The notes below the pieces were generated by a model. The model was not told the DNA's origin and did not search any database. It saw only the letters and a program-made list of their open reading frames with translations. Below, piece by piece: positions 43,306 to 52,340 of a DNA stretch of 64,000 nt. The first letter of the stretch is position 1; every line of letters starts with the position of its first letter. The position numbers and the translations under genes were made by a program. Where the stretch lies: NCBI RefSeq assembly GCF_024713975.1, contig NC_091111.1, positions 9,792,501 to 9,856,500 of the forward strand, written 5' to 3'. This DNA is from Paralichthys olivaceus. Taxonomy: Eukaryota; Chordata; Actinopteri; Pleuronectiformes; Paralichthyidae.

Positions 43306-43880
43306 AATGTGGTTTGGATTCTCTGTGTAAATCATGAAGCACATTTCCATCACAAACATTGCTCACCATTTTTATTAAAACAATTGTGTTTTTTGGGGGG
43401 TGCAGATTCAGGAAATTATGTATGACTTTCTGTAACATGCTTTGACGTTTCCTTTTTGATTTTTTTTAAAATAAGGCTTATTTAGTTCACAGATATTAAT
43501 TGGTACCAAATAAATTGATTGAAATCCTATGGAATGGTGCAGGTTTTTGTGTCAGAGCTGCTCAGTGTTCACAGTCCATGCTCACCAGGGAATTGCACCT
43601 TCTGTGTACATGGTTGTCTCAGTTACAGGCCCTCATGGCTCTTTGCAAGCTGCAGCCGCAAGATTAATTCAAGTTCCCTGGGATCCATTACATAAACACA
43701 ACACATTTTGGTTTTCCTTCACCAACAAGCACCCAAAGCATACCACTAGTGTTTGTATGTTGTTATATATGGAATATAAAACAATGCTTTCTCATTGATG
43801 AGGTGACCATTGATCACCAGATTTTCCACAACAGCCTTTACAACCTTTGATGTATTCATGTGCCACTTCTGAACTGTGAC
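43306..43880. other. Spacer fez2-drc3
   Basis: AT-rich with a secondary AATAAA (43509-43514). No gene seen. The last 150 bases before 44033 are probably the drc3 promoter. Confidence 0.5.
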
Positions 43881-43919
43881 AACAAAGGCAGCTGCCTTTA
43901 AACAGTGTGGAAACATAGA
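43881..43919 (+). promoter_or_regulatory. 31-bp ciliary-gene-associated element upstream of drc3
   Basis: The unit (43884-43914) starts with the 16-bp perfect palindrome AAAGGCAGCTGCCTTT and ends AAACAGTGTGGAAAC. Its end lies 119 bp before the drc3 ATG. GGAAAC (43909-43914) and GACAAC (43878-43883) match the RFX X-box half site RRNRAC. The same unit occurs upstream of dnai1 and at 48754-48790. A regulatory role is inferred. Confidence 0.5.
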
Positions 43920-44032
43920 TGCCACCAGAAGCATGATTTGAGCTTGCTACTACTGCTAAAACGTGTTGTTTAGGCAGAAGTATTTTGCGTTCGAAAATTT
44001 CAGTGAAGTGAAGCGACCCAACCAACAGTAGC

Positions 44033-47000
44033 ATGAGCTGGCAGTTTGCACCTCAACCCATTTTGATGGATGACGAGGTTGTGCAGAAGGCAGTGGATGA
44101 GCAGATTTCTCAAGATCAGGCTGGGAGAATTGCCAGGAATGAAGTCTCCACTTTATATCTGGACTTCAAATGTAAGAAAAAACATGAAAAGAAAAATATC
44201 ACTGTATTAAAGTGAATTGTGCTTAGGTGTGTGTGATATCGTCTGTTCACAGACATCCTGAAGATTGAACACCTATGGGACTTCACATCCTTGACCAAGA
44301 TTAATTTAAACAACAACCTAATAGAGAGGATTCGGGGCCTGGACAATCTGGTGAATCTGAAATGGCTCAGTAAGATGAAGTTTTGTATTTGCATTGTTCA
44401 TGAAATGGTTTAAATAGAGAAAAGCACATACTGAGCACAACAACTACCAAGAATAACCAACATCATACTGAATGTGTCTTTTAGATCTGTCATTCAACAG
44501 AATCGAAAAAATCGAAGGCCTGGAGACTCTGCAGAAGCTTGAAGTTCTGAATTTGACCACCAATAGAATCTCTGTCATTGAAAACATCTACCATCTTGAG
44601 AAACTCACCCATTTCTACATTTCAAACAACCTCCTTGAACAACTGGATAATGTAAAAAAAAAATCCCTTTGTCTGTCACATATATTAAACGTACAATAGT
44701 GTGTAACATTTGTGTACTGCAGTATCTTTACACAACATATACCCTAATGTAATTCAAATTCATTTTAAAGGTGCTCTCTCTCAAGAAAGTTAAGAAACTG
44801 GGCGCCCTCAACCTATCTGGAAATCCATTGTCAAAGAAGGATGATTACAAATTATTCATTGCTGCCTTCTTTCCAAACTTGACGTGCTTTGACTACAAAT
44901 TAATTAGTGCGGAGACTGTAAGTATAAATAATGATACAGTTGTAATCCATTGTTTTCTGCTTTGAAGCAAACATATATCAAACATATATTTTATAGCTAA
45001 TGTTCTTTAAAGCCATGACAATGTCTACGTCTCTTTTCGTGTTGATATTGTATTAAAACTGTCTGTGCAGAAAAAGGAAGCATCTATCAAATACTCCAGT
45101 GATGTTGAGAAAATGAGAAAAGAAGAGCTGCAGAAACAACAAGCTGATGACGCTGAGCAAAGCCGGAAAGAGGAACTCCAATTACACATGGTAACCTAAA
45201 GCTCTTGTTCACTGTCCACTGAGCTCTCAAATTTGCAAAAGTGTGACAGGTCAGTTCTTTTGTCCTACAGGACGCCTTTGTGGAGTTCCTGAATGGATCT
45301 AATCTGTTTAAGAGCATGTTCAAAGATGATCCAGAAGCAGAGACACTACGTTCTGTGACAGAAGTGGCTGATCTGCTTCAAAGATATCCATTGATTGTTG
45401 GCTTTCTCATCCGTGCGGGTGTATTAATGACATATTAATCTGGGAAATCAGTCCTTAAATTCCTTGACCCAACATTTACATTTGAGCAGCAAATGGTGGA
45501 ACTTTGTGAGCAGTTATTGGAAATAGGCTTGGCAGAGCATAAACAAAGAGAGGCAGAGGTAAACTCCTTCCTCAGTGGTCGCACAAAAGTTCTGACAGAC
45601 TACAAGAAGGAAGCATGGCACAAATTGGAAGAATTTGAGCAAGAACAACACCAGGTGAGCTGGGCCATACATAACGTTTCTAAAGGACTTGCACTTTGTA
45701 ATTTAAACAGATAATAACTCATTAAATCTGAAAAATAATTAGTAGATAAACATCGCTAATGACACAAGTGAATTTTCCTGGTGTGGAATCTATAAAGTTG
45801 ATCATTATTTTATGCCTTTCTAGAGGATGGTGGAGTTGCAGCTGATATCAGACTCAGACAAACTGCAGGTCAAGATCAGCCACTGCGTTGATTCAATCAA
45901 CAAGTTCTCAAACAGCCAGATGTCACTGGAGCTTAAGCTCAGCAGCCAGTTGGACGTAAGTGTGTGTGTGTGTTTATGTAAGCTGACAGTCAATTATTTT
46001 TAGAATTTAGTCATTGGAGTTGAGCTGCTTTTCATGTAACTGTACAAATTATTAAAGATGCTATAGATTTAGATTAAATATTATATATATATATATAAAG
46101 ATTATTTTTTTCATTTCAGGACCTCATCAAAGAGTTGGACATCAACATCTCAGACATGGTTAGCAGCTTCACTGACAATGCTAAAGGAATATATCCTTTT
46201 CATTTGTTGAGACATTGTAAAGTCACTTTTTATTATATTTAAATGAGAGACAATATCAAGCTACATCTTAATACAATGCCAGATTAATGCACCAAAGCAT
46301 AATGGCAAGAACTAACTCTGTCTACCATGATGAGGAATCAGAAGATTTGAATTTAAACTTGATGCATCAAAGAGACCAGAAAGTGCAACAATATACAAAC
46401 GCTAACAGAGTAAAGTAGTAGTCTTACCCTGACTTGTGAACAAGATCTTAAGAAACCACCTTCACTTTCTCTTAATCCAATTTGACCTGGATTCTATTTA
46501 AATTGAGTCCTACTCCCGTCAACTGATTTCCCTGTCGATAATTAAGTCCTGTGTAAATTACATCTTTAACACAATCATACATTTGCCCAATGTCGAGATC
46601 TGGAGGATAATTATCATCAGGATATGCAAGATATTGCTTCGGCAACTCTTGAGAAAGTGGCCTCGGGCAGTGTGGAAGAGGACATGTCAGGTGACGTTAG
46701 ATGGGTAAGTGTTAAATCTTTTGTACCAAACTGGCTAAATGACAGGATTATAGTCACTGTAGACTGCTATAGCCTCATAGTAAAAGCACTGATTACTGCA
46801 TGTCACTGTCTGCACACTGACATGTGACACTCCAGTGTCATTCTATAGCCAATACTGTTAAAACCACATTTTCTTTCTCACTTCATGTTATATAGAGCAG
46901 AATTATAATCTAATGTCAACGCTGATGATGGAGATTAATCTCAATTGGTCAGATGATGCAAACACATGTGTCATTACCAGTGTCAGTGCCCTCACCCTCT

Positions 47001-47383
47001 CGTATCCTGTGGTCTCTCTGTAGCTGTTTAGAGACAAAAACATGGTGATGGACGCACTGGCAACTGGCCACAATAACCACCTGCAAAAGATCGATGACAG
47101 AGAGACTGAGATGGTTGCACGTGTCAATGCCTGGAAAGTTTCCCTCATTAAAGGGGTAGGGAGCTGGAATTACCTTACAACCAGCAGCCCAGTTCATATT
47201 TTTATCATTGACAAACCTCCTTCACAACTCACTGTCTTGTTATTGTTTGCTTTTTGTCTTTATGGCTTATTACAGATACAAGACACAGAACTGAAGCGGA
47301 ACCGCACAAGCATCTCACACAACCTCAAATATAAGGAAGAGTGGTTGGAGCAGCTCGGAGAGTTCCAGTGGCAAGATCTTTGA
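44033..47383 (+). CDS. drc3: Dynein regulatory complex subunit 3 (LRRC48)
   Basis: Leucine-rich-repeat and coiled-coil subunit of the nexin-dynein regulatory complex of motile axonemes. Coding exons: 44033-44171, 44253-44369, 44485-44651, 44771-44917, 45071-45190, 45271-45396 (or 45420), 45490-45654, 45824-45955, 46120-46190, 46581-46704, 47024-47155, 47276-47383; 515 or 523 residues (human 523). The start MSWQFAPQ resembles the orthologue (MSWMF). LRR units run from about residue 45 to 190 (LWDFTSLTKINLNNNLIERI, LNLSFNRIEKIEGLETL, NRISVIENI). A cap motif NLSGNPLSKKDDYKLFIAAFFPNL and coiled coils follow, with AFVEFLNGSNLFKSMF and AQCRDLED diagnostic for DRC3. All introns are GT-AG except intron 9 (AT-AC). 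Exon 6 has two possible in-phase donors: GTTGGC at 45397 or GTATTA at 45421. Confidence 0.94.
46191..46580 (+). other. drc3: U12-type AT-AC intron of drc3 (intron 9)
   Basis: The intron starts ATATCCTTTT, the U12 AT-AC donor consensus. It has a U12 branch-site match TCTTTAAC at 46563-46570, followed about 11 bases later by the terminal AC (46579-46580). Joining ...GGAAT to ATTTGCC... gives AKGIFAQCRDLEDN, which lines up with the conserved AQCRDLE of DRC3. No AG acceptor in the right place would do this. Confidence 0.9.
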
Positions 47384-47801
47384 GGCAAACATTGATTTAA
47401 TTCACATCCTTGTTATTAACATGGAACAGGACATTCTCACAGCCTTCTGTCGGTTGTTTTATGTATTTGTTCCATTACCAATAACATATTTAGGAATAAT
47501 TTCCCCTTTCCTTTTTCAATCTCTTTCCACCTGTTCTGAGACAATAAAGAAATCTTGATAACCAATATGTTGCTTCAGCTCTGTCCTTGTTCCCCAGATG
47601 AGCAAATATGTGTATCTGGTTTTACTGTGTTCACAACTCTCTTTAAAAACAAAGCTATTTAATTTGTATTGCAAGACAAACAACAAGGAGTGTCGACCAA
47701 AAAGAAAAATATATGGACAGGAATTAAAACCACGTGGTTGAGTGCGGGAACGCAGTAGAGGGGGGAATGTTTATAAAGTCATAAATGTTAATGTTAACAT
47801 G
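47384..47801 (+). other. drc3 3' UTR and spacer to the dnaaf6 fragment
   Basis: AATAAA at 47543-47548 probably ends drc3, with a short UTR of about 180 bases. The remaining 250 bases hold nothing I recognise. The next coding sequence is on the other strand, tail to tail. Confidence 0.6.
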
Positions 47802-48038
47802 TTATTGCATGTTTATAAAGTCCATGGGCCGTTTCAGAAACAGCGTCACCTCTAGCTCCTCTTGCTCGCTGAAGAATCGAGCTCTGCCCTTGTGGCGGTG
47901 GACAGCATTTGGGAGATGGAGACCCAGTTTGTGGATTCGTAGATCAAGGAACTTCTCTTTTACATCCAGGACAACATCTGTTGCTTTTGTGTCTGGCAGT
48001 TTGATTTTCACCAGCATGTTGTTTGAATCATAGTCCAT
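47802..48038 (-). pseudogene. dnaaf6: DNAAF6/PIH1D3-like C-terminal fragment, intact short ORF
   Basis: A 78-codon frame from a true ATG to TAA. It encodes VKIKLPDTKATDVVLDVKEK, then FLDLRIHKLGLHLPNAV, ELEVTLFLKRPMDFINMQ. This corresponds to the C-terminal CS-type beta-sandwich of DNAAF6, a cytoplasmic factor for preassembly of axonemal dynein arms (vertebrate proteins are about 200 residues and end ...DFINF-like). The N-terminal PIH region is missing, and I find no exon for it within 1.4 kb upstream. It could be a truncated duplicate, a young short gene, or the last exon of a gene whose other exons I missed. No stop or frameshift is inside. Confidence 0.6.
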
Positions 48039-48357
48039 GCGTTGTGACGTTCAGTGAACGTGAATGCTATTCCTGTTATCTGATATTACTATTTGATGAT
48101 AGATTACACGTCTAATTACATTATTTCTAGCGAGAAAAGTGCCCTTTACTTTCACAATCTTCCACCAGTTCATGCTTATGGTATGTATCTTATTAGTTTA
48201 CTTACTAACTTATTTTTTCAGATCACGCCAGAAAATTGTAGAACTGTAACGTTTTAATCGTCGCTATGGAGTTGCTACGGACTCTGCGATCCAAGAAACG
48301 GCGTGGTTGCGTGTTGTTTGAATCGTCGTCCATGCATCGTGACATTCAGTGTGAATG
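48017..48357. repeat. Imperfect direct duplication around two ATG codons
   Basis: Both 48017-48064 and 48313-48357 read tgttgtttgaatc.t.gtccatgc.t.gtgac.ttcagtg on the plus strand. On the minus strand each contains an ATG followed by GAC-Tyr/Asp-GAT-TCA-AAC-AAC; copy one starts the dnaaf6-like ORF (48038), copy two (48336) opens only a short frame. Confidence 0.8.
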
Positions 48358-48554
48358 TTCACATGTCTATGTTTTTCCAAGTGGACCAACGTAGCTATTA
48401 CACGTTTTCAGATGAGACTGGGTTGTTAATCCCAGAAATATTAGCTACTGCTGTTTAATCTCAGATAATAACAAAACGTAGAAACGCGTCACAACTGAAA
48501 ACACTGCACACTGCTGTTGACACTCTCTTTCCTTGGAGACTAGCAGACTCTGGG

Positions 48555-48568
48555 GTTGTCACAGTAAC
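48555..48568. promoter_or_regulatory. RFX X-box match
   Basis: GTTGTC-AC-AGTAAC fits the X-box consensus RYYNYY-N(1-3)-RRNRAC at every defined position. It lies about 0.5 kb upstream of the dnaaf6-like ATG on the minus strand. Binding is inferred from the motif only. Confidence 0.45.
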
Positions 48569-48753
48569 CAGTGACATCAACGATGGAAATAAATGCTTCC
48601 TTTGGCAGTAAGTGGTGATATCGCTATCACTACAGACAGATCAACAGATCTGTTCAGGTTAAAAACACTCTTGTTTTTCAAGCTTAGGGGTAGTTAGAGT
48701 GGTAGCTTGTAGAGGCACTTCCTAGAGGTAACAGAAACTGCCACTGGTATGCG

Positions 48754-48790
48754 AAGGCAGCTGCCTTTGTTACCACACTGTTTAGATGCA
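48754..48790 (-). repeat. Third copy of the 31-bp element
   Basis: On the minus strand it reads CTAAACAGTGTGGTAAC then AAAGGCAGCTGCCTT, a circularly shifted copy of the element at 43884-43914 with GGTAAC as the half site. Confidence 0.75.
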
Positions 48791-49292
48791 GCTTCCTAGT
48801 AAAATGAGCTATCTGGAACACAAACACCTTGATAATCTAAATCATGTCCCAGGGCAGAAAAAAGATGCTATCAATTTACTCTGTCTCCAAAACACATCTG
48901 AACATGCATTAACATTATGTCATGGTCTAAACTCTGCCTACGTAAACTATCTGGACAGAAAGACATTGACACCTTGACACCTCTCTTTGAGAGAGATTCA
49001 AAAGAAGTAGGCAGATTTGTGCTGCTCAATTTCTTTGTTTACTTGGTCAAAACATGTCAGAGTTGCCAAACAATCATGCTGTTCTGCAGGGAGAAAATAG
49101 TTAGGAGGAAACAGGACTTTTCACAGGAATAGACGAGTCACGACAGCAGTCTCATAATCAACCTCTTGACTTCGGCTACATTAGCAGCTATGATATCTCT
49201 GATCATTCAGAATAAAATAAATTCTCAAATAAAATTTAAGATGTATCAACTGCTGCAATATCAATACATTAATTATTAATCAGTCATCAATC

Positions 49293-49430
49293 AATGAAAA
49301 TGTATTTGTATAGCCTTTATTCACAAATCAAAATTTGTCTCATAGGGCTTTAACAAAATGATAGGAGAGTGAGGAAAAACTACCAAAAAAAAAAAATCCT
49401 TAACAGGGAAAAAAGAATGTAGAAACCTCA
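49293..49430. repeat. Interspersed repeat, shorter relative of 52162-52340
   Basis: Shared phrases: atttgtatagcc, ttcacaaa, agggcttta, gaggaaaaac and aacagggaaaa. On the minus strand it supplies AATAAA (49321-49316), about 165 bases beyond the dnai1 stop, a possible polyadenylation signal. Confidence 0.6.
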
Positions 49431-49484
49431 CAGAGAGCCTCTCCTAAGACCTGGTATCAGGTTTGTGTGTTGGGGATAGAAAAA

Positions 49485-51704
49485 TTAAACTGGGCTTTGC
49501 CGCAGCAGACTTAGCAGCTTCTCCATTTTGGCTTCTTCGAATTCTGGACCTTTGGGCACCTCCTGACCCTTCTTTACCTTGGGTTTCGTGCGAAGGTTAG
49601 GGGAAAGTTTGAAGCTGGTGACGTACCCTCTGTCATCACCCACTGTGATGATGGGATAGGTAGGGTTAAATTCCAGGTGCGTCAACTTCGTCTTTTCATC
49701 CACAACAGACTGCTGACAGATGGACTCATATTCGTTGATGCTGAGGTCAAAAACGTGAACCTTCCCATCTGCTGTGACAGCAGCAAATACAGTGGAGGAA
49801 TATGGAGACCAGGAAACATCCCTGACAGCAGCTCTCAGGTTAAAGGTGAACATGGGCGTATTGATGGTATGGTCCCAGATCTTGACATTCCAGTCTGAAC
49901 TGCAAGAGATAAAAACCTGTGGGTGGAAGTAGTTCCATTTCACAGTGTCCACTGTCATGCTGTGGGCATTATACGTCTCTAGGAACTGGCTGGAGTAAGT
50001 CTTTGAGCACTTATGTATTTTCCCTCCCTCTGTGCCAACCAGGAAGAGAGAGTCGATCTGTTTGTGGAAGTCAAACGCTCTACCATAAGTGAAGATGGGC
50101 AGCTGTGCATCTTCTGGCCCTTCAGATACAGCACCATTCAGTCTGATAATGTCTGTGTAGACCAGCTCATTCTTAACAAGTGTCCAAGACACAACTCGGC
50201 CATCAGATGACATAGAATAGAAATTGGTGTTGTTGTCCATGTCATTGTTCTGCCAGCGTACCTGCCAGACAGGGTCAGTGTGCTTACCAGTCTTAGCTAT
50301 GCTCTTGTGCATGGGCTCCACTCCCTCAATGTTTAAATTGTAGACGGCCACACAGCCATCATAGAGGCCCACCACCACCAGGTTAGAATGCTGCTTGTGG
50401 ATGTCGAGACACAGGACGCCAGACTTGGTGGGGTAGATGTACTCTGGAAATGATGAGTTCTTCAACGAATACAAGACAACCATGCCACCTTCCTGCTTCC
50501 TGGAGTCATACGATCCCATACCCACAGCAAACAGATCCTCAAATTTCGTACTCCAGCAGAGGGCAGTGACAGACAGTGTTTTAGCTTTGTCATATTGGAA
50601 CTTCCACAAAGGGAGAAGGGTGCCCTCCTCATCCCTGAGCTCATCAGAGGCATCTTCAAAGTATTTGAAATTTTGTGCTATTTCATCAAATGTATTTTGA
50701 TGGACCATTCTTTCAGACATCTTGACTGCTTTTCCTACTTTGGTGAGGTCTTTGTGCTCCATCAACCATTTTGGTAGTGTGGCTTTCTGCTTCTCTTTAT
50801 TTTGTTCTTGTTTTTGTGTCTCTTCCATGTACGCATCATAGATCAACCACTGATTAGTAGTGGCAGAGAAGTCGCAGCAAGGAGGACGTACAGTCTGACT
50901 GCTTTTTTCCCTTAGTGGGTTATTGAAGGTCTGGGTGACCCTCCCACTGAAGTTGATCTGGTTAGTAATTTTCGGCTGCTTCTTGTCTGTTTTGAGGGCA
51001 ACACTGTCTGGTCTTTCTTCTTCTCCAACTTCCTCCACTGCCCCTTCGTCTTTTACAGGTGTAGCCAGGGTGTCGGTTTTCTCCTCATCAGGTTCTGTTC
51101 CTGTTTCCACTGTTACAGCCTCTTCTGGGAGATCCCCCATGGCCCTTAGTCTTCTGGCCTCATCAGAGTTTCGATGTATAAGCCTTCCCTCCAACACAAA
51201 GTGAACAGCCATTTGATCCACAACAACAGGCATGAAGGATTGTTCCTTGAAGCTGTAGCGTACAACATTTTGGGGTGCATTTGGGTTATTGGCATTCAGG
51301 ATCCTTGTGATTTCCTCATTTAACTCAGCCTCAGTGAGCTCCAGTTGATCTGCAGGTTTAGTAAGTCCTTTACCTTGAGTCTCATCCAAGCCAACACCCT
51401 TATCCACATGTTCCTCATCATCCTTTGTCTTTTGTGCAGCTTTGGTTGGCTTCACTGCAGGTACCTTCCGAACAATTGAGCTCTGTGTAAACACAAACAG
51501 CAAAAAACTTTATGGCTAAAAGTGATAGTGAAAGATGACATAACACTTACTTAACTAAGTGTAATGCTTTCAAGTAAGTTCAAGATAAGTGCTTGAGACA
51601 GAAAATAACCAGCTACAGTTAAATAAACGTATAAATAGATATCATAGATAGACACTCACCTTTCTCACAGAGGTTGTAACCTTGCGTTTCTGCACAGACA
51701 TCAT
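49485..51704 (-). CDS. dnai1: Axonemal dynein intermediate chain 1
   Basis: WD40 intermediate chain of the outer dynein arm. Coding exons on the minus strand are 51704-51660 (15 codons, [15 protein letters not shown]) and 51482-49485 (665 codons plus TAA), giving 680 residues against about 699 in human. The intron is 177 bases, GT-AG, phase 0. Visible features: [20 protein letters not shown] and [13 protein letters not shown] (N-terminal conserved block), an acidic variable segment, [31 protein letters not shown] and [16 protein letters not shown] repeats follow ([70 protein letters not shown]), then [17 protein letters not shown]. There are no internal stops or frameshifts. The mammalian gene has about 20 exons, so this form is strikingly intron-poor and suggests a retrogene. 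Confidence 0.95.
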
Positions 51705-51720
51705 GACAGGAACCTTGTTT

Positions 51721-51735
51721 GTTGTTTTAAACAAC
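51721..51735. promoter_or_regulatory. dnai1: Palindromic X-box-like site next to the dnai1 start
   Basis: GTTGTTTTAAACAAC fits RYYNYY-N3-RRNRAC and is nearly a perfect inverted repeat. It lies 17 bases upstream of the ATG, so it would be in the core promoter or 5' UTR. Confidence 0.35.
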
Positions 51736-51823
51736 AGTTGTTTGGCCAAGGTCTATATTTCCACAAAAAGTTATAAAAGTAAAAACCTGTTCTTTGCACT
51801 TAATGTATATTAAAAAAACTGTG

Positions 51824-51994
51824 TGCCTTTGTTGCCACACTGTTTAGAGGCAGTTGCCTTTGTTGCCATGCTGTTTAGAAGCAGTTGCCTTTGTTGCCAC
51901 GCTGTTTAGAAGCAGTTGCCTTTGTTGCCACGCTGTTTAGAGGCAGTTGCCTTTGTTGCCACACTGTTTAGAAGCAGTTGCCTTTGTTGCCATG
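51824..51994 (-). repeat. 31-bp minisatellite upstream of dnai1 (about 5.5 units)
   Basis: Units begin at 51824, 51855, 51886, 51917, 51948 and 51979, with few differences. In dnai1 orientation each unit reads AAAGGCAACTGCC(T/..)CTAA, then ACAGTGTGGCAAC, carrying GGCAAC half X-boxes. The array starts 120 bp from the dnai1 ATG. Confidence 0.95.
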
Positions 51995-52161: not shown

Positions 52162-52340
52162 ATCAAATCAAATCAAATTTTATTTGTATAGCCCAAATTC
52201 ACAAAACACATTTTGCCTCAGAGGGCTTTACAATCTGTACAGGTAGTGACACCCTCTGTCCTCAGACCCTCGGTTCAAGTGAGGAAAAACTTGCCCACAA
52301 AAAACCCATTTAACAGGGAAAAGAAGGTGGAAGTGTTTTT
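52162..52340. repeat. Teleost interspersed repeat (tttgtatagcccaaattcac type)
   Basis: A run of aaatc repeats leads into ttttatttgtatagcccaaa, gagggctttacaatctgtac, gacaccctctgtcctcagac, gaggaaaaacttgccc and aacagggaaaagaaggtgg. This phrase set is common in many fish genomes; no ORF. Confidence 0.65.

Follow-up and report, generated by a model that had tools for sequence, protein, structure and literature searches.

A dispersed repeat of 31-bp units and an end block lies upstream of several axonemal genes in Paralichthys olivaceus and may be a mobile promoter block

In the 64-kb stretch of the Paralichthys olivaceus assembly analysed here (C19:9792501-9856500; the window), a 31-bp unit is found upstream of drc3, of a dnaaf6-like open reading frame (ORF) and of a retrocopy of dnai1. 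All three sites are real and, as an earlier note on this DNA had proposed, the unit has one orientation relative to the three genes. Searches of the whole assembly (588 Mb, 25 contigs) revealed that the unit is part of a dispersed element, composed of a run of 31-bp units and an end block of ~80 bp. Using an 81-base consensus of the end block, we detected at least 31 copies (one in the window and 30 outside it; weakest E 8.3e-8), a count that is a lower bound. Six of the 30 outside copies are positioned upstream of axonemal genes confirmed by PDB matches: dnai2, dnai4, drc4/gas8, mns1, dnah6 and dnajb13. We somewhat favour the reading that this element is a mobile promoter block, which would have spread as a repeat and been retained at motile-cilia genes.

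A chance origin of the unit was excluded both in the window and across the genome. The 22-base pattern GTGTGGCAACAAAGGCAACTGC has seven window matches at up to three mismatches, as compared with 0.00 expected. The exact core occurs 81 times genome-wide, against 2 for its reversed control, and three further unit searches with mismatches allowed gave 471 matches vs 6, 302 vs 0 and 254 vs 0 for the respective reversed controls. The shorter pattern TAAACAGTGTGGNAAC, again with up to three mismatches, was matched 10 times in the window, as against a mean of 3.61 and a maximum of 9 in shuffles. Seven of these are units, four of them exact (43899-43914 on the + strand; 48769-48784, 51831-51846 and 51955-51970 on the - strand) and three being array units with one or two mismatches; the remaining three (41791, 56736 and 59179; three mismatches each) are at chance level. 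The element copies in the window, and the first two of the genes that they face, are as follows.

43874..43918, + strand: ~1.4 units of 31 bp ahead of drc3 (core TAAACAGTGTGGAAAC at 43899-43914; related to the dnai1 array through inverted repeats I2-I5, with 81-88% over 42-44 nt).
43930..43955, + strand: probable end-block remnant AGCATGATTTGAGCTTGCTACTACTG, from alignments, ending 77 bp before the drc3 ATG.
44033..47383, + strand: drc3 (dynein regulatory complex subunit 3), with several exons; the conceptual translation of the N-terminal ones is matched by DRC3 chains of the PDB (E 9.5e-45), and the last ORF of the gene was also recovered.
47805..48038, - strand: dnaaf6-like ORF, 78 aa, with the C-terminal PIH1 CS-like domain only (Pfam PF18201, E 1.3e-5).
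48698..48751, - strand: end block, about its first two thirds, immediately following the 48.75-kb unit and facing the dnaaf6-like ORF (C19:9841198-9841251; block positions 4-56 of 81, E 8.3e-8).
48762..48797, - strand: single 31-bp unit with core TAAACAGTGTGGTAAC, from pattern matches.
51824..51992, - strand: 31-bp array of 5.5 units that begins 120 bp ahead of the dnai1 ATG (Tandem Repeats Finder, TRF, and pattern matches).

According to TRF, the last of these (5.5 copies, 94% matches) is the sole 31-bp array in the window. The additional copy at ~48.75 kb, said earlier to face the dnaaf6-like ORF, does so with an exact core (48769-48784, -); the ORF itself looks like a truncated or fragmentary copy, and a 43-bp near-duplicate pair accompanies it (48014-48056 and 48309-48351). 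The unit had also been described as standing at equal distance from the drc3 and dnai1 start codons, a claim that hinges on the measuring point. The GGAAAC end of the drc3 unit, at 43914, is 119 bp from the ATG at 44033; at dnai1 the figure of 120 bp counts from the array edge (51824), whereas the matching GGCAAC unit end, at 51831, is 127 bp from the ATG, so that like for like the two distances are 119 and 127 bp.

The genes downstream of the six axonemal blocks were identified by PDB matches to DNAI2 (1.7e-81), DRC4/GAS8 (1.4e-18), DNAI4 (8.7e-10), MNS1 (8.9e-47), DNAH6 (5e-17) and DNAJB13 (8e-60). The binomial probability of 6/30 is 1.8e-6, 2.3e-4 or 3.3e-3 at background shares of axonemal genes of 1.25%, 3% or 5%, respectively, these shares being assumed values, a point to be held against the enrichment. 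For most block copies only the side to which the block points was examined, so that gene orientation is ascertained by that choice. With start codons set by eye, the block ends 2 bp before the ATG at gas8, 3 bp at dnai4, 4 bp at dynlt1, 14 bp at dnajb13, 30 bp at dnai2 and 77 bp at drc3, while the first recognised exons of mns1 and dnah6 are ~0.2 kb and ~1.7 kb downstream of it. A block lying 2-77 bp from the ATG would carry much of the 5' untranslated region and probably the transcription start. Four to five units are found just before dnajb13 (C15) and before dynlt1 (C19:13.45 Mb; identified by its Tctex-1 domain), and a further element copy precedes, by ~0.9 kb, the first exon recognised in an ankyrin-repeat gene at C19:4.54 Mb, which we take to be ankef1. 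The earlier suggestion of a small spreading module, biased toward ciliary promoters, is thus supported by these copies, the six axonemal ones together with those at dynlt1 and the ankef1-like gene; the satellite arrays described below, and the 24/30 outside copies that are next to no confirmed axonemal gene, may count against it.

The ends of the element suggest that it is transposon-like, of the DNA transposon kind. We aligned 35 ends, namely the 31 block matches and four weaker copies (the ankef1 side, drc3, C4 and a third C15 copy). In seven of the 35 rows (L025, L034, L036, L038, L039m, L043 and L044) the exact terminus TTACTG is present and similarity stops there; several of the other rows are a few bases off TTACTG, and those of a second type end otherwise. 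In the first end type (A), which usually has units before it, the best copies end CCCTTACTG, and in the second (B) the terminus is about TGTCTCTC. A and B ends occur back to back and facing outward at L018, L024, L030, L037, L039 and L045/L046, as expected for the inverted ends of one element. In five of these pairs (all but L018), with ends set by hand, the flanking 8-mers agree at 7/8, 5/8, 7/8, 3/8 and 1/8 positions; among 120 permutations the true pairing scores highest. The sequence around L039 is rich in CTG. The end of a transposon is the most likely identity for this low-copy dispersed repeat, judging by these features.

The dnai1 gene of the window, which encodes a protein matching PDB DNAI1 with E 8.8e-251, is contained in a single stop-to-stop ORF of 674 codons and comprises the following parts.

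51660..51704, - strand: dnai1 retrocopy exon 1, with the ATG at 51704, from the alignment to the parent.
51483..51659, - strand: retained intron 1 (aligned with the parent over 215 columns at 76% identity; boundaries by eye).
49485..51482, - strand: exon 2, carrying the remaining coding sequence as a single open frame (ORF; PDB DNAI1 match; multi-exon relative on C2).

The multi-exon relative (C2:19.5155-19.5330 Mb) gave 15 matches with identities of 39-88%, of which 14 reach at least 61% and five cross a stop codon; the DNAI1 query also matches C16:23.161 Mb (34%), ~8 kb beyond the dnai4 copy of the element. Homology between the window gene and the 5' flank of the C2 relative stops 73 bp upstream of the window dnai1 ATG, which fits a copied transcript. 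By these alignments, window dnai1 (49485-51704, -) is a semi-processed retrocopy in which intron 1 was kept and the frame is open. At 130 bp ahead of its ATG, the C2 gene carries GTTGTCTTGGCAAC, which departs by a single mismatch from a strict RFX X-box (GTNRCC N0-3 RGYAAC). The 31-bp unit at up to three mismatches is absent from the C2 dnai1 stretch (~2.8 kb upstream of the ATG), in which one four-mismatch match occurs on the opposite strand. With the retrogene array running from -120 outward and the X-box-like site of the parent at -130, the array adjoins the retrogene where the parent has an X-box-like site. Two copies of another dispersed repeat flank the retrogene, at 49293-49412 and 52171-52322 (82% over 60 nt, 78% over 45 nt).

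We propose that the element would be a transposon end, from a non-autonomous DNA transposon whose inverted ends are imperfect, and that it comprises the 31-bp units and a terminal block of ~80 bp which in the best copies ends GCTTGCCCTTACTG; the unit would also have been amplified into satellite arrays. Copies would have inserted immediately upstream of genes, and those at motile-cilium genes would have been kept by selection for promoter action. The terminal block, with its ETS-like core CCGGAAGTG, would set the transcription start, while the units, by virtue of a TAAACA forkhead-type core and GGNAAC RFX-type half-sites, would give cilium- or testis-specific activation through factors whose identity we infer from these motifs. 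Such copies are common to three genes of the window (drc3, the dnaaf6-like ORF and the retrocopied dnai1), the last of which, having arrived without the upstream region of its parent, adjoins an array at the position of the parent's X-box-like site. More tentatively, a fish-lineage DNA transposon with a start-site block and forkhead/RFX-type units may have changed the wiring of part of the axoneme battery (outer-arm, inner-arm, N-DRC, radial-spoke and microtubule-inner-protein genes) and made the dnai1 retrogene usable.

Several observations weigh against a mobile promoter block, the first being the existence of long arrays in which the 31-bp unit is a satellite. Most exact-core matches lie inside 31-bp arrays on C8 (1.84 and 2.235 Mb) and C19 (0.37-0.42 Mb); further arrays appeared on C11 (25.72 Mb) and C10 (25.38-25.49 Mb) once mismatches were allowed, and one on C3 (26.51 Mb) was seen among the matches listed. 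Long head-to-tail arrays are therefore present on five contigs (C3, C8 with two, C10, C11 and C19), reaching 78 units at C8 and 322 units in 10 kb at C19. They are positioned within ~0.4 Mb of the contig end on C11 and C19, ~1 Mb from it on C10 and ~2 Mb on C8. Part of the longer element is also found in the array region of C19: a search with 161 bases from upstream of a B end gave seven matches, the query included, one of which (C19:421679) falls there and connects the satellite with the dispersed element. An ordinary minisatellite or satellite that seeded stray copies, some of them near cilia genes by chance, would account for these arrays and for this piece. We nevertheless consider that explanation improbable, because the dispersed copies have a second block, lie close before genes and are axonemal in 6/30 cases; a pure satellite is insufficient, given the end block carried by dispersed copies (31 matches). 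The earlier note had set its proposal against a common repeat lacking ciliary bias, and the outcome is divided: the unit is indeed a satellite, but a bias toward cilia genes is present among the block copies (6/30). Five isolated exact matches of 15 specified bases (C2:7.11, C6:9.56, C6:14.08, C11:16.42 and C13:8.37 Mb) had no wider similarity and were set aside as chance or unresolved, the reversed control of the exact-core search predicting about two such chance matches. One exact pattern gave 0 matches in viral contigs.

Other such points concern the structure of the element. Several rows of the end alignment are without the terminus, a target duplication is absent in two of the five end pairs, and the terminal eight bases differ between the two end types. 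Among ORFs of at least 60 aa in the 3.8-kb C1 interval L052, the sole interval read, no transposase was recognised by eye, and a coiled-coil ORF inside it means that L045 and L046 may be separate copies. In the window, the end-block remnant at drc3 amounts by BLAST alone to 13 bases (E 0.20) and is outside the 31 genome-wide block matches, and between the dnai1 array and its gene we recognised no end block. The X-box-like site of the C2 parent is weak by itself, because a second one-mismatch site occurs within the 3.5 kb scanned.

The neighbouring genes belong in the same balance, since most outside block copies (24/30) are next to genes other than confirmed axonemal ones or to no identified gene. 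These include three rbbp6-like genes (one of them with a DWNN domain, 3e-25), rpap3 (PDB 2.7e-89), dynlt1, topors-like, ubiquilin-like and wdr47-like genes and arl2. We take the LisH protein to be WDR47, the RING gene TOPORS and the ubiquitin-like gene ubiquilin; ARL2 was named by eye and is likewise our assumption. The block ends 5 bp before the ATG at the ubiquilin-like gene, 5 and 17 bp at two unnamed genes, 84 bp at arl2 and 145 and 147 bp at two of the rbbp6-like genes, and two block copies lie 2.5-3.6 kb before a creatine-kinase-like gene, by eye presumably muscle creatine kinase. The three rbbp6-like genes (L031, L041 and L050) have one upstream element, probably copied along with the gene. 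Axonemal genes are strongly expressed in the testis, and the main rival explanation is accordingly a passive insertion bias, by which a small DNA transposon prefers open male germ-line promoters and has no regulatory role. The copies close before rbbp6-like, ubiquilin-like, topors-like, rpap3 and arl2 genes are what such a bias predicts, as is a motif content that is equal at axonemal and other copies. We regard it as less likely than the promoter reading, in view of block ends only 2-30 bp before the ATG at gas8, dnai4, dynlt1, dnajb13 and dnai2 (77 bp at drc3) and of a dnai1 retrocopy that came without its parent's upstream region.

Motif content fits a promoter-bearing element, without singling out RFX or FOXJ1 or excluding a germ-line insertion bias. 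In the excerpt of PMC4168999 used here, the RFX X-box is given as RYYRYY N1-3 RRNRAC, along with a forkhead consensus. Motifs were counted in 452-base stretches around 32 copies and compared with shuffles; eight copies were labelled axonemal (the six above, ankef1 and drc3). RGYAAC occurs 24 times as compared with 9.9 expected in these eight copies, and 57 times vs 27.5 in the 24 others; for TAAACA the counts are 11 vs 3.7 and 28 vs 10.4. RFX specificity of the axonemal copies is hence not supported, RGYAAC being at ~2x and TAAACA at ~3x expectation in both groups alike, which again speaks against the promoter reading, as do the two observations that follow. RGYAAC is missing altogether at drc3 and gas8 (count 0), the drc3 GGAAAC fitting RRNRAC only, and the strict X-box occurs with 0 mismatches at one of the 32 copies, on the minus side of L030. 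One-mismatch X-boxes are found at 3/32 copies (dnah6, dynlt1 and one C15 copy), a level that 3-5 of 20 shuffles also reach, and the other 28/32 are two to three mismatches from a two-sided X-box. The perfect X-box GTTGCCATAGCAAC at L030 (C16:23.1529 Mb) is just outside the element end opposite dnai4.

The 3' half-sites (RRNRAC or RGYAAC) are present overall, with the dnai1 promoter as the most pronounced individual example (RGYAAC 11 vs 1.8 expected, TAAACA 6 vs 0.8). As for the forkhead core RYMAAYA, the units have YTAAACA without the leading R, and RYMAAYA is within ~2x expectation in 8/10 copies, the exceptions being the dnaaf6-like copy (1 vs 0.27) and one C15 copy (3 vs 0.52). The ETS-like CCGGAAGT is exact in 14/32 copies. 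A true FOXJ1/RFX composite site, arising by convergence or copied between cilia promoters by gene conversion with no transposon involved, would explain units with TAAACA and mostly GGNAAC, as well as the motif excess at dnai1. It is the least probable of the alternatives that we weighed, because homology continues for ~80 bp past the motifs and includes non-cilia genes, a perfect X-box is missing in nearly all copies and drc3 has no RGYAAC. The earlier argument from the RFX half-site is accordingly weak, there being no axonemal excess and a two-sided X-box at 1/32 copies.

Dispersed unit sites from the mismatch-allowing searches were taken among the matches listed and are therefore a minimum. 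They include copies before a coiled-coil gene (C4), a RING/FEM1-like gene (C7; the FEM1 label is our assumption) and the creatine-kinase-like gene (C15:20.70 Mb), and another at C16:1.60 Mb. The second block after the units is common to most non-satellite copies and is not found at C7 and C16. At the latter two, L029 (C7:0.783 Mb) and L027 (C16:1.60 Mb), units without an end block have a different flank in common, CACTGCTGAGGAG, indicating that the unit is dispersed in more than one context. On C4, two short genes with similar first exons both have element copies (L026 and L049, at 2.83 and 2.74 Mb); the longer of the conceptual proteins, the coiled-coil one of L026, had no relative in the PDB, in Pfam (above cut-off) or in the protein database searched. 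The ORF left of the ankef1-like gene gave no credible PDB match and no Pfam family. At L017 (C15:14972632-14982631), dnajb13 and its neighbour, by eye presumably a mitochondrial carrier (uncoupling-protein-like), appear to be tandemly duplicated, in divergent orientation.

Joint control of many cilia genes is usually ascribed to old single motifs. Among the papers listed by literature searches, judged by titles and abstract openings, none describes cilia-gene promoters supplied by a repeat. If true, the mobile promoter block would be a testable case of a repeat handing one promoter to dnai2, dnai4, drc4, dnah6, mns1, dnajb13, drc3 and the dnai1 retrogene, and would explain how a cilia retrogene gained its promoter.

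As far as the excerpted text goes, the FOX/RFX promoter signature of motile-cilia genes described for HEATR2 (PMC4168999) likewise places a forkhead-type TAAACA beside an RFX-type half-site near the gene; the motifs there are short, whereas here one repeated block of common descent is involved. With the RFX X-box the element shares GGNAAC-type 3' half-sites in most units, within ~130 bp of the drc3 and dnai1 starts, but its 5' half-site is degenerate and, unlike an X-box, it is homologous over the whole unit and the 80-bp block. hAT-type miniature inverted-repeat transposable elements (MITEs) are non-autonomous DNA transposons that carry inverted repeats at their termini and are flanked by target duplications of 8 bp. 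Similar to these are the putative inverted ends of ~75 bp, the abrupt terminus of the best copies, the candidate 8-bp duplications and the insertions near genes; different are the small number of copies found (only ~35), the unlike terminal bases at the two ends, the tandem 31-bp units inside and the absence of a transposase relative in the one C1 interval read (L052). Finally, in gene regulation of the Britten-Davidson type, promoters or enhancers borne by transposons wire batteries of genes. Here, too, one repeat gives several functionally linked genes one cis sequence, with the difference that the battery is the axoneme.

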